Positions 3,775-34,830 of a DNA stretch of 64,000 bases are shown piece by piece (the first letter of the stretch is position 1; every line of letters starts with the position of its first letter). The position numbers and the translations under genes were made by a program. The notes below the pieces were generated by a model, which was given only the letters and a program-made list of their open reading frames with translations, did no database searches and had not been told where the DNA came from. Origin of the DNA: Lutjanus erythropterus (Eukaryota; Chordata; Actinopteri; Lutjaniformes; Lutjanidae); the NCBI GenBank assembly GCA_020091685.1, contig CM034607.1:16607221-16671220 (forward strand). The letters are read 5' to 3'.

Positions 3775-6060
3775 TGTAAATGGAAACAGAATGCAGTGAT
3801 TTGCAACAACTTTTTAAGCTCTCTTCAATCGAATACAGTAGAAAGACAAGATTTTTAATGTCCAAACTGATTAACTTAGTTCTGTGTACAATTCTAGTCC
3901 TGCATTGAAGTCAATAAGAATTAATAATTTAATCTCAAAGAAGTATTTTGCTGGTGGTCATGTGTCATGGTGACATTTTAAAATGTGAGTTATTATAGCA
4001 TCTTGTATGCCTTTAGAAGAGAAGAAAGACTTAAACGTGGAGTCAAAACAGGCTGTGGCCTAAATGAAACGGGTGTGGATACACTGACACACACTGACAT
4101 TTCATTGGAGGGCCTTTAGCTTTGATTAAGGTATGCATCAGAGAAGTAAAAATCCATTGATGGAAAAACCTGGTCATTCAGTGTACTCAGGTAGTGAGCT
4201 GACCTCATTTTTTTGGGCACATAACATTGCTGACCTCGACCTGAGCAACTGGAGCAACTGAAGCATCCCCAGATCATAACACTGCCCCCACAGACTTGTA
4301 TGTTAGGCACAAGGCATGATGGGAGCATCTCTTCATCCACATCTCTTCTTACCCTGATGCCCCCATCACTCTGGAACAGAGTTAATCTGGACTCATCAGA
4401 CCACATTACCTTTTTCCGTCGCTCCAGAATCCAATCTTTATGCTTCCTAACAAAATGAAGCCTTTTTTTCTGATTAGCCTCACTGATAAGTGGTTTTCTC
4501 AAAGCTGCACAGCTGTTTAGTCCCAATCCCCCTGAGTTCTCTTTGCATTGTGTGTGTGGAAATGCTCTTACTTTCACTGTTAAACTTAGCCGTGAGGTTT
4601 TGATTTTTTGAGCTGTTGATTTTTTTATGATTTGATTTCACCAAACGTTTCAGTGATTGTCAGTCACAATCATTCAAGATATTTTTCCAACCACATTTCC
4701 TAACCTAATTTTAGTAGTTTCATCAATCTCCTTAGTTGTTTTCTTTACTTGATGCCAATAATTTGACCTGTCTGAAACAGAGTAACATCTTTTCCACGAC
4801 CACAGGATATGTCTTCTGACATGGTCGTTTAAGAAATGAGAAGCTACTCACTGCATTAGTTAGGTTTAAATAACTTGTTGCCTGCTGAAACATATTAATC
4901 ACTGCAGTAATTATTCAGTGAAAGGCTCTTACCCATTTTCTTAGTTAAATCCAGCTGGTGGCTTTTTTATTTGGCCGGGCAGTGTGCATTCCTGATGCTC
5001 TTTCTGCCCCCCGTGGAAAGCAGAAAGAGGGATCTCACAAAAATTAAAAAAAATTCACAACAATTTAGCCTGAAAAAGACACATACTGACCTGCTTTTCT
5101 CTAGTGTTGTGACAAATATTTTGGTTAAATTTGTTTAAAAATGAGATGAACTAGAAAATATTACACATAATATATGAACTGAGTGATGGATTTTGAATTG
5201 ACCCTAGGTTGCAGTGAGACAAATTTTTGTCACCGTTCAGCAGATGTGCTGAAGAAATTTCAGCTCTGTAGGATGTACGGCTGATTATTTTTTCAAGTTT
5301 GGATTGTGAGATGTCTACAAATTTAGATTTATTGTAATAAGCCGGGCCCACTTTAAGCAGTTATTACCAAAATTCATATATTGATTGAATCATGACCCGA
5401 GATCATGTACACTGATCTTTGTGCAAATTCATGCAGCCGATTATTAGATAGAAACTGAGCTTTATGAATACTCCTGAACATGTCTCAGTTTTCATTTTGA
5501 TATCTCATTGTGTTCATGAGTTGTTACAGATTTGGAAAAAATCAGAGTCTGCAGATGATGCTGACTCATTTTCAGGATGATTGGCCTAACCGTCTGGGAG
5601 GAGTTCACAAAAATAGGATGTTCATAAAATCAAGAAAAAGTTTATATTTTTTTAAAGCAGAAGGCCAATTGAGAAAAGTTGCAGGTGCATTGAAGGATTA
5701 AATTGGCGAAAGAATTTTTAGTCTGCGCAGAGCAGACAAGATAACTGCAAAAACGTGAACTACCTAAACGTATTGCCACCATGAGGTCAATGAGTGTCAT
5801 TTTTTTGTCTGAGCAGTTGGTGGAATTTGTAGCCAAACTGTCAATTTTGGTGAGTTTTCGTCTTACGGTTTTTGCTGAACAAACACTTTTAGAACCCTTA
5901 ATGAGTGTATATTTACAAAAAAACAATAGTTTATTAGATTGAACATTGAAAATCTTGTCTTTGTACTGTATTCAATTGCATATAAGTTGAGGACCATTTG
6001 CGTTTTGTTTTTACTTATGTTTTACACGGTGATCCAACTATTTTGGAATTGGAGTTTGTA
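3775..6060. mobile_element. Element bounded by long inverted arms, with a nested Tc1 fossil
   Basis: Sequence around 3785-3870 (for example GAATACAGTAGAAAGACAAG) recurs in inverted orientation at about 5935-6030 (CTTGTCTTTGTACTGTATTC). Arms of about 100-150 bp in opposite orientation, about 2.1 kb apart, look like the ends of a DNA transposon that later took a Tc1-like insertion. The interior has no intact transposase. Two independent copies in opposite orientation remain possible. Confidence 0.5.
4110..4985 (-). pseudogene. Degenerate Tc1-like transposase
   Basis: The minus-strand open frame 4577-4116 carries Tc1-family landmarks: RLHFVRKHKDW, then MWSDESRLTLFQSDG, which holds the first catalytic Asp of the DDE domain, then GGSVMIWGCFS around the second catalytic position. 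The N-terminal DNA-binding half (about 4580-4950) is still recognisable as the matching element sequence but is broken by stops and shifts, and the C-terminal end is lost. The outer end near 4985 reads, on the minus strand, CACTGCCCGGCCAAATAAAA, a typical fish Tc1 terminus. It is inactive: no full frame, and no left terminal repeat was found. Confidence 0.85.
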
Positions 6061-10118: not shown

Positions 10119-22536
<12,418 letters not shown>

Positions 22537-27782: not shown

Positions 27783-28811
27783 ATGCAGGACAGGATGGAG
27801 AAGTTTGGAGCTCAGCAGCCTCTCTTTGTTCCAGCCAGCAGCTCTCAGCCACGTCTGTTCAGGAGGAGCACCACCTACCTGGCTAAGATCGCCGTCGTCC
27901 TCCAAGACGCTCCAGGCAGGATGCTCACTTTTACTCAGGTGAGGAAGAGCCAAGACATTTGAAGTGACTGCCTTTAAAAAAATGTCATGTAAAACTCAAA
28001 CTGTAGTTTTAATTTCAACATGATGTTTTCTAGTTGATGGACAAGCTGGCACCAATAATCTGTGAAGACAGAAAATCTGTTGAGAACAACGTAAGAGTCT
28101 GTTTATCAACAAACAAATGTTTTGTCAAGGTAAGGTTTTATCACTATTTGAATATTTTATATTGGGACAAGTTAACCTCTGTCTCTAAAAGCCCTGTGTT
28201 GTCTGTTTCAGATTCCAGTGGTCCCAGATTCACTGGGCAGTAAGAGAAACTACTGGAAACTGGACCTCAGTCACATCACAGCAAAGATGGTGCGTCGTCA
28301 CTTCAAAGAAATCCTGCAGCTCTTCCCTGAGTTGGCCTCCAAAGTGGAAACGGAGAACCTGAACACACCGTCAGCTCTCCATCCTCCTGAAGCTGCAGTT
28401 CAGATCAGATGCGAGGTGAAGTTCAGCAGTCCTTTCTCCATCGAATCCCTCCTGAAGAGAGACGGTCCCTCTGCTCGGGCCTCCAGAGCTTCTCCTCTGT
28501 CCACCGTGCCGCTCAGAGCCGAGCAGCAGCCTCACTTCACACACGCACGAGTCGGGACAAAGAGGAGCTTCAGCTGGGACTCTGAGGAACCTCTCCTCCT
28601 TCAAGCTCCAACTGGAAGTTCCTCCATCTACTCAACAGGGGGCAGCACACACCACAGACTCCCTGCTAAGAGGCTGAATGTGAGCACTGAGGCTTCATTC
28701 CCTCTCTACACAAGAGCGAGTGCTGCTCCCTATTTCACCAGCCCACACAGCAGTTACATCACTTACTCTGGACCCACATTTACCCATGATGCTCTCCATT
28801 TTCGCTTGTAA
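27783..28811 (+). CDS. Divergent FoxH1-like forkhead transcription factor
   Basis: FoxH1 proteins are Smad2/4 partners in Nodal/activin signalling. The exons 27783-27938, 28034-28129 and 28212-28811 give 283 residues, with clean GT-AG sites in phase 0. The forkhead domain (about residues 31-105) starts YLAKIAVVLQDAP, like FoxH1, and closes with CFVKIPV and NYWKLDLSHI, matching the FoxH1 pattern of CFxKVP and NFWxVDxSxI. Two introns cut the domain. The recognition helix reads SVENNVRVCLSTNKCF instead of the usual W..SIRHNLS..CF, so the Trp, the base-contacting His and the Asn after it are replaced. Residues 159-165 (FSIESLL) form an EH1 Groucho-binding motif, also present in FoxH1. No Smad-interaction motif of the PPNK type is visible. 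An in-frame ATG at 27795 could be the true start. The family call is good, DNA binding is doubtful, and it may be a fast-evolving paralogue of foxh1. Confidence 0.82.
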
Positions 28812-29150
28812 ATATATTTTCTCCTGCTTCCAAATTGCACTTTTATATGTTTTATGTTTTTGAGTGTACACTTAAGAGAGATTTTTTCTTTAAAATCAGG
28901 CACACAGATTCAAATCACACACGGCCCATGGATGGTCATGTGTGTCATTGTGTCTGGAATATTTCTTTTATTTGTGGCTTTATTTTGTTGAAAAGTGCAC
29001 GTTCATATACCTGCTGTTCTACATGATGTGGACCAGAACACTTTATGCATTTTTACAGTTTCTTTTGTGTTTGAGGTCAGAGTCTGATCATAAGAGGGCA
29101 GCATAGTGCCTTGTATCAAACTCAAAATGATTAAAGCTATTTCTTCTGCA
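28812..29150 (+). other. 3' UTR of the FoxH1-like gene
   Basis: Short AT-rich 3' UTR ending at the variant poly(A) signal ATTAAA 29130-29135, followed by a T-rich stretch. No closer signal is visible after the stop at 28809-28811. Confidence 0.6.
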
Positions 29151-31277: not shown

Positions 31278-32633
31278 AAGAAATGGAAAATTTCAGTTTG
31301 AATGGTTTGAGTCTCCACCTGGAGGCAGTAGATTTAAATCATAAGCCTCCACATACCATAACATAATGTTTACAAGAAGATACAGTGCAAATTCTCCTCC
31401 ATGTCGGGCGCCATAGCTAAGTGGTGATAAATAGGTTTTAAATAATGTGGTGCACCTCAGTTCTGAGGCAATTGCGTTTTTATTTCGATCATTATGCAGC
31501 ATTATAACTTAATGAGTTATGAGGCAAAATAACTCAATAAATTGAGTGGTCTGAGGTCAAGTTTAGATCTTACTTATTATTCATTTTACCCCCTTTACTT
31601 GACATTTCATTGCAAGGTCAGGAATTTCTTGCAGATAACATCAAAGATCATGTGAGCCTCGTAGTCGAAGGCACACTGGAGGAGGTCAGTCATGAGACAA
31701 GAACTTGGCCGGACAGAGGTCAAAGGAGAGGAGTTGGGTGAGCTCAGCATTTGGCATCGTATGCCCACGACATACTTCCACCCTGTGGGATTACTGGTGC
31801 ACGACCTAGATTGCGATGCAGCCCTCCTGCCCTCCATCTTTTTTTCCCTCCCTCCCTCCCTGCACTGACTGGTCAACAGAGATTACACTCAGAGAGCAGA
31901 GCCTGGCAGTCAGACAGAACGGCTGAGCATGTGACTGACTGAGTGACACACTGAGGAAAAAAAAAAAACACTACTCTGTCCTCTTCTTCACTGCTTCTCA
32001 TTCTCCTCTCCTTATGCTTTTGTGTAATATACACAGAGCCTTTTATCCTCGGGAGCAGCTTCTTCAGAGATATTATATTAAGTCCTCTCCCGGGATGAAA
32101 AAGACCTCAGTCAGGCACAGAAACTGCTTTGTGTTGATTGTTTACGAGTCCCAGATTTTACTGCGACATGCAGAATTTAATAGAAGTGTTCAGAACATGA
32201 TACCAGGAGATTGAACTGACGAGATTTCCTTTAATTGCATGATCAGAGAAAACTGGAGCTCCTCTGTCTCTCTGTCCATCTACTGTTGAGGATTAACTTC
32301 AGTTGCTGGTTTACTGATTGAATAAACTGGTTCACGCATTAATCCTCTGAATGGTGCATTGTGCAGAAGATACTTACTGTATTTGCTGTACAGACCAGTG
32401 TTGCTCTGTATGTCAGAGTTTTCCTGACCTTGCCCTGTGTGCGAGTGTCTCTTTATGTACGTGTGTTTTTATGTTACTCTATTTGTTAATAGGTCTTCTT
32501 TTTCCAAAACTGCACCTCTGATGTTAATCCTCCTCCCGCCGAACCAAAACTGCCTCTTCTCTCCTTCCAGATAAGAAAGAAAGATAAGAATTATTTTCTG
32601 GGTCAAAAACACAAGTGCATGCACAGTGATGTT

Positions 32634-34310: not shown

Positions 34311-34429
34311 TCTTACTTATTTAATACCAGGTGGGCCTGACCCTGAGTAAACTACTGCTGGTATGTTGTGTGTATTTTTTCTTAAAGGGACAGCGGAATA
34401 TAAAGTCTTTCAGCCTGAAGCACTTCACC

Positions 34430-34830
34430 TCCCTGAACTCCCTGTCCTCCTGCTGTAAAGTCCGTAGCAGGAGGACCGGAGGTGTCCCGAGGGCGTGGCA
34501 CTGATCGGACGGACGTCAGAGGATAAACGAGCACCACGTCGATATCCGTACACAACAACACAACCGTCGAGGCAGTCACGTCGCGCTCGTCTTCCTCGTC
34601 CCCGGTCCCGCCCTTCACCGCCCACGTCTTCTGCTGTCTTCCTCAAAACTTAACCACTGTCTCATCATTTTTACAGCCTGCCGGTTTACTCAGCCTGCTG
34701 CCGGGCTGTGCTGCGTTCAAGGCTGCACATAAGAGCCACGTATCACATAACGGGGCGTGTTTTTGTTGTGGCGGACCGGCGGTGTTTTTATTTTCAAAGC
34801 TACGTGACGCTACTTTGTGCTGCAACAACT
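34430..34830. promoter_or_regulatory. Unexplained CpG-dense block
   Basis: About 400 bases with many CG dinucleotides (for example at 34484-34625 and 34740-34815) in a long AT-rich region. It includes an acceptor-like 'catttttacag' at about 34667-34677, but no open frame with family features. Such islands often mark promoters, but no exon on either strand is evident. It could also be a recent insertion. Confidence 0.4.

Follow-up and report, generated by a model that had tools for sequence, protein, structure and literature searches.

The forkhead gene and its surroundings

The window, that is, the whole 64,000-nucleotide stretch of Lutjanus erythropterus DNA analysed here, carries on its forward strand a three-exon forkhead gene (27783–28811) encoding 283 amino acids followed by a stop codon. 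As the preliminary description had stated, the frame is intact over the three exons (27783–27938, 28034–28129 and 28212–28811). Both introns are of the GT–AG type and both exon junctions lie between codons, the first behind Gln52 and the second behind Lys84. Residues 30–104 match the Pfam Forkhead family (PF00250; E=2.6e-8) at 34.3 bits, the curated cut-off being 27. The features of the gene are listed below, with the evidence used to place them.

27783..27938 (+): exon 1, with the start codon ATG, the N-terminal arm and the beginning of the forkhead domain (MQDRMEK...STTYLAKIAVVLQDAPGRMLTFTQ); open frame, donor CAG/gtgagg
27870..28271 (+): forkhead domain, residues 30–104; Pfam PF00250, E=2.6e-8; the span includes two introns
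28034..28129 (+): exon 2, with the end of helix 2 and the recognition helix (LMDKLAPIICEDRKSVENNVRVCLSTNKCFVK); acceptor tctag, donor AAG/gtaagg
28070..28111 (+): recognition helix, residues 65–78; FoxH1 chain alignment, helix in the AlphaFold2 model of homologue P0001, conservation
28079–28081 (+): V68, equivalent to FoxH1 Trp141; FoxH1 chain alignment
28085–28087 (+): N70, equivalent to FoxH1 Asp143; FoxH1 chain alignment
28094–28096 (+): R73, equivalent to FoxH1 Arg146; FoxH1 chain alignment
28097–28099 (+): V74, equivalent to FoxH1 His147; FoxH1 chain alignment
28100–28102 (+): C75, equivalent to FoxH1 Asn148; FoxH1 chain alignment
28212..28811 (+): exon 3, encoding the wings, the C-terminal helices and the tail up to the stop codon; acceptor tttcag, frame open to TAA
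28284..28301 (+): basic stretch K109-M-V-R-R-H114, following the domain; homologue conservation
28434..28454 (+): eh1-type Groucho/TLE motif FSIESLL, residues 159–165; homologue conservation, regular expression, shuffled tails
29130..29135 (+): possible polyadenylation signal ATTAAA; sequence

When the window was searched by tblastn with its own protein and 120 homologues, the gene was found as one copy and no second copy was detected. Two further, short matches, at 31745–31843 (+; 67% over 33 amino acids) and 34373–34552 (+; 39% over 62 amino acids), were rejected as a second copy, as they resemble the atypical 3′ ends of two gene models of the family, P0110 (Takifugu) and P0016 (Pempheris), respectively; another terminal exon, conserved non-coding DNA or repeats could account for them. 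A beta-catenin gene of the ctnnb type precedes the forkhead gene on the forward strand, at about 11749–22533 (+), its extent having been judged by eye from the reading frames; two of its exons scored 171 and 148 bits with beta-catenin versus 143 and 115 with plakoglobin. A degraded piece of a Tc1/mariner-type transposase is found at 4119–4637 (−), its Pfam HTH_Tnp_Tc3_2 score of 25.6 bits lying under the cut-off of 31.5. Rfam gave zero matches in the window at gathering scores.

An altered recognition helix shared by many fishes

The recognition helix had been described as VENNVRVCLS in place of the usual sequence, with His, Asn and Trp replaced by Val, Cys and Val. Alignment with FoxH1 chains showed these replacements to be real: W141-R-D143-S-V-R146-H147-N148-L-S of zebrafish FoxH1 aligns with V68-E-N70-N-V-R73-V74-C75-L-S, and the domain of the window protein is three residues shorter just before the helix. 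Crystal structures of FoxH1 (PMC9701222) show major-groove bases being read by Asp143, Arg146 and His147, and the minor groove by two residues of an N-terminal arm, Tyr92 and Arg94, with further DNA contacts made by lysines of the wings; in the same paper, the reading triad of helix 3 is described as conserved in Fox proteins, and Asp at position i as unique to FoxH1. In the window protein, Arg146 is retained as R73 and Asp143 is replaced by Asn70, the usual Fox residue, so that of the triad Asn/Asp (i), Arg (i+3) and His (i+4), Asn and Arg are present while His has become Val.

The search of fish proteins that the preliminary description had proposed revealed open-frame relatives in abundance, with 188 homologues at E≤1e-3 and an identity of up to 79% over the full length among the best 120 of these 188; distant members, above all non-acanthomorph ones, may lie beyond those 120. 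When the soldierfish member was used as a further query, 14 identifiers were gained, including the gadiform hake Merluccius. In the 122 homologues with a complete helix (12 of 134 having been excluded for lack of one), the position of the His is occupied by Val in 117, with Leu, Ile, Ser, Met and Glu once each, and never by His; that of the Asn is Cys in 120 and never Asn; that of the Trp is Val, Ile, Phe, Ala or Leu and never Trp. Arg73 is found in 120 of the 122 and Asn70 in 109. Six rows that depart at positions 73–75 were kept in these counts, among them P0106, an apparent gene-model error. Since the altered pattern recurs in nearly all of the 122 sequences, it is far beyond chance.

The wings and the segment that follows them likewise preserve their basic residues well: among the homologue rows, K95 is present in 121 of 133, R96 in 105 of 133 (with Lys in 26 more) and K100 in 132 of 133, and after the domain, in the rows covering each site, K109 in 133/133, R112 in 130/132, and R113 and H114 each in 132/132. 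The near invariance of K100, K109, R113 and H114 fits a retained contact with DNA. In exon 3, residue 105 of the window protein is His and residue 117 is Glu, the corresponding residues being Gln in 108 and Gly in 109 of 121 aligned rows, respectively; because the closest fragment, P0036, has the same two residues, they look like lineage features.

NCBI taxonomy assigns the hake to Gadiformes, the soldierfish to Holocentriformes and the best full-length match to Percomorphaceae. As these are three branches of Acanthomorphata, the origin of the family probably dates back at least to that group; the remaining named homologue species are presumably acanthomorphs too, three species having been placed by taxonomy. 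GenBank names one goby member (P0091) after zebrafish si:rp71-45k5.2, which suggests that the family is older than Acanthomorphata, orthology being by name only. In several species, e.g. Epinephelus, Scortum, Odontesthes, Leuresthes and Mugil, two of the listed proteins come from contigs of the same length, and these pairs look like small local duplications.

Relationship to FoxH1 and to other Fox classes

FoxH1 is the vertebrate Nodal/activin effector also known as FAST1 or schmalspur (structures 7yz7, 7yzb and 7yzg). A canonical FoxH1 co-occurs with the altered gene in the 21 related species compared (21 of 22, P0047 having been dropped as its pattern was not found). Across these species, the domains of canonical FoxH1 are on average 97.2% identical in pairwise comparison and those of the altered family 75.3%, the former being more conserved in 210/210 species pairs; as judged from these sequences, the altered family is the faster evolving of the two. 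Within one species, the domains of the two genes share on average 29.7% identity. The proteins differ in length as well, with 283 amino acids in the window versus 420–621 for 116 fish FoxH1 among the best 120 of 311.

With the family profile, the FoxH1 chains in the PDB came first (64, 54 and 53 bits), followed by FOXA3 (47), FOXC2 (46), FOXG1 (44) and FOXQ1 (28). The window sequence alone scored 48.6 bits with human FoxH1, 39.8 with FOXA3 and 37.4 with zebrafish FoxH1. Profile–profile comparison with canonical FoxH1 gave a match that spans the domain only (83 columns, probability 98.3). The full alignments comprise 77 of the best 120 homologues and 22 of 120 canonical proteins. For the trees, domains could be taken out of 105 of the 134 homologues and out of 114 of the 120 canonical proteins, the 228 rows being reduced to 175 once duplicates were removed; the first tree held 47 rows (28 homologues plus the window protein) and the second 26. 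The altered family comes out as a single clade (100/100), whose stem is very long (2.58 changes per column). In AU tests its grouping with FoxH1 was not rejected (p 0.47 and 0.54); the tests equally left FoxQ1 (p 0.31), C (0.11), G (0.39) and D (0.26), so that none of the classes tested was rejected, and one free tree set the family next to FoxA at 85/75. The AlphaFold2 model, made for homologue P0001 (89% identical to the window protein in the domain), places a helix at 65–78 and reaches pLDDT values above 90 for the greater part of the domain, and the winged-helix fold is thus predicted to be intact. Forkhead chains were its top matches in Foldseek and VIA, with FoxH1 nominally first in a tie with FoxP2.

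The assignment to FoxH1 made in the preliminary description holds as regards the profiles, by which FoxH1 is nearest; neither the tree that the same description had called for nor the fold singles out FoxH1. We therefore call the gene FoxH1-like and consider descent from FoxH1 likely. Alternatively, the gene may derive from another eh1-bearing Fox class, of the FoxQ, FoxC, FoxG, FoxD or FoxA type, its likeness to FoxH1 being superficial. This would agree with the groupings left by the AU tests, with the free tree next to FoxA and with the tie in fold between FoxH1 and FoxP2, and GenBank names of the homologues also include FoxQ1, C2, G1, I1 and others. The profile scores speak against such a descent, as do the three coding exons, a number shared with foxh1 as reported for the ricefield eel (PMC10531137). 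This match is one of exon number; the open-licence literature, as searched, yielded no junction positions for canonical foxh1. On balance, we regard descent from another class as doubtful. The names themselves are widely inconsistent across fishes (FoxH1, Q1, C2, G1, I1, D1, B1 and L3).

Outside the domain, likeness to FoxH1 is confined to one element, the eh1-type motif downstream of the domain, which, like the Arg of the recognition helix, is common to both proteins; of the FoxH1 features tested beyond the domain, it is the only one present in the altered family. Within FSIESLL, F159, S160 and L165 are found in 132/132 rows covering the site (of 134), I161 and S163 in 130 each, E162 in 127 and L164 in 119. 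The motif pattern matched all 113 homologues of at least 240 amino acids, compared with 2 of 15400 shuffled tails; the pattern used for canonical FoxH1 was slightly looser. The ten-residue block of lowest entropy in the protein, with a mean of 0.30 bits in 77 homologues, carries the start of this motif, and in the same alignment (77 of the best 120) the domain and eh1 are the least variable parts of the protein. Such low variation, despite the faster evolution of the family, suggests constraint on the encoded sequence.

The remaining FoxH1 elements were sought in the same 113 homologues, with 98 canonical proteins outside HMM building as controls. At E<1e-3, the Smad-interaction motif HMM matched 0/113 homologues versus 95/98 canonical proteins, that of the conserved segment of the FM motif 0/113 versus 96/98, and that of the basic N-terminal arm 0/113 versus 97/98. 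PPNK, which we take to be the core of the Smad-interaction motif, was likewise found in 0/113 homologues versus 117/120 canonical FoxH1. The segment after wing 2 was considered as a shared FoxH1 trait and discarded, its HMM matching 0/113 homologues and its addition to the domain HMM lifting the median only from 40.7 to 41.3 bits. Even for eh1, an HMM of the FoxH1 region with its context found none of the 113 homologues below E 1e-3 and five below 0.1; because the FoxH1 context does not match, the eh1 of the altered family could, on this comparison of sequences, stem from another Fox class.

Putative mode of action

The gene is most likely an old, fast-diverged FoxH1 paralogue in a fish forkhead subfamily, as far as the comparisons above allow one to judge. 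The preliminary description had left two possibilities for such a paralogue, a new DNA target or the lack of specific binding, and the conserved Arg, Val and Cys together with the basic residues favour the former. We give even chances to a repressor of FoxH1-like type that would be uncoupled from Smad and would still bind DNA through Arg and the basic wings, reading a different site. In this scheme, the domain would hold DNA via Arg73, Asn70 and the basic residues that lie within and downstream of the wings; at the site of the His used by FoxH1 and other Fox proteins, Val74 would make a hydrophobic contact, and the replacement of His by Val and of Asn by Cys would shift the target site away from the TGTGKATT of FoxH1. 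FSIESLL would then recruit Groucho/TLE at the bound site and so cause repression, independently of Nodal/activin–Smad input. An F-S-I-x-x-L/I-L motif able to bind Groucho/TLE is also carried by repressors of the Goosecoid/Engrailed type, which have a different DNA-binding domain; the fish motif is a candidate for such binding.

The clearest rival is a domain without sequence-specific reading, which would serve as a scaffold or contact DNA or chromatin non-specifically, for example titrating Groucho/TLE or reaching genes through a partner. Several specific FoxH1 contacts are indeed gone, both the base-reading His and the minor-groove arm having been lost, and as the His of FoxH1 reads bases directly, its loss might simply weaken specific binding. 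Arg73, Asn70 and several basic residues are, however, well conserved to nearly invariant, and the replaced positions do not drift but are themselves conserved (as Val and Cys), which points to selection on this surface; we therefore hold this reading to be rather unlikely. Still less probable is a dominant antagonist of FoxH1 that would occupy FoxH1 or forkhead sites and, having eh1 and lacking the Smad motif, shut them. The FoxH1-like domain, the association of eh1 with a missing Smad motif and the retained Arg contact would suit such a role, but the residues behind the GG/GT site contacts of FoxH1 (Asp143, His147 and the Tyr92/Arg94 arm) are changed or missing. Finally, a decaying duplicate with an accidentally open frame is hardly credible: the lesser conservation of the domain in all species pairs would fit it, yet the same helix and open frames recur in many fishes and variation is lowest in the domain and eh1 blocks, which rules out decay as the main reading and bears out the earlier opinion that this is not simple decay.

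If the proposed Smad-uncoupled repressor is taken one step further, it is tempting to speculate that the family might constitute a separate acanthomorph forkhead class, a Smad-free Groucho repressor reading a DNA site that no known Fox protein reads, with the activating and repressing halves of FoxH1 split between two genes; we put this forward tentatively, as something rather short of an even chance. A vertebrate subfamily that has stably lost the reading His is an unusual and testable case, function being deduced here from sequence alone, and the stable replacement of this residue, with Arg and basic residues kept, offers a natural test of forkhead specificity change. In Nodal/FoxH1 signalling, the gene is a candidate for the role of partner or antagonist, and its current GenBank names (FoxQ1, C2, G1, I1 and H1) mutually disagree.

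In searches of the open-licence literature, no description of the altered family came to light beyond the mention of si:rp71-45k5.2 in a gene list for a zebrafish mapping interval (PMC2924321). There it stands beside zgc:113424, a novel forkhead domain-containing protein; the kinship of the zebrafish genes to the altered family is putative, goby P0091 bearing the name of si:rp71-45k5.2, and no study of either was found in the same literature. Three apparent leads were set aside: the ricefield eel paper describes a canonical FoxH1 of 510 amino acids (PMC10531137), ‘Fast3’ in an amberjack paper is a sample name, and two other papers mentioning ‘rp71-45k5’ refer to a neighbouring proteasome gene.

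A parallel is offered by Xenopus FoxH3 (XFast-3), a FoxH1 paralogue which is compared here by description and which is described (PMC1939712) as having only one of the two outputs. The same text states that an eh1-type motif can recruit Groucho/TLE and that nearly all vertebrate FoxH proteins have one. FoxH3 represents the reverse case, lacking eh1 and being predicted to act only as an activator working with Smads, whereas the fish gene keeps eh1 and is without the Smad motif.
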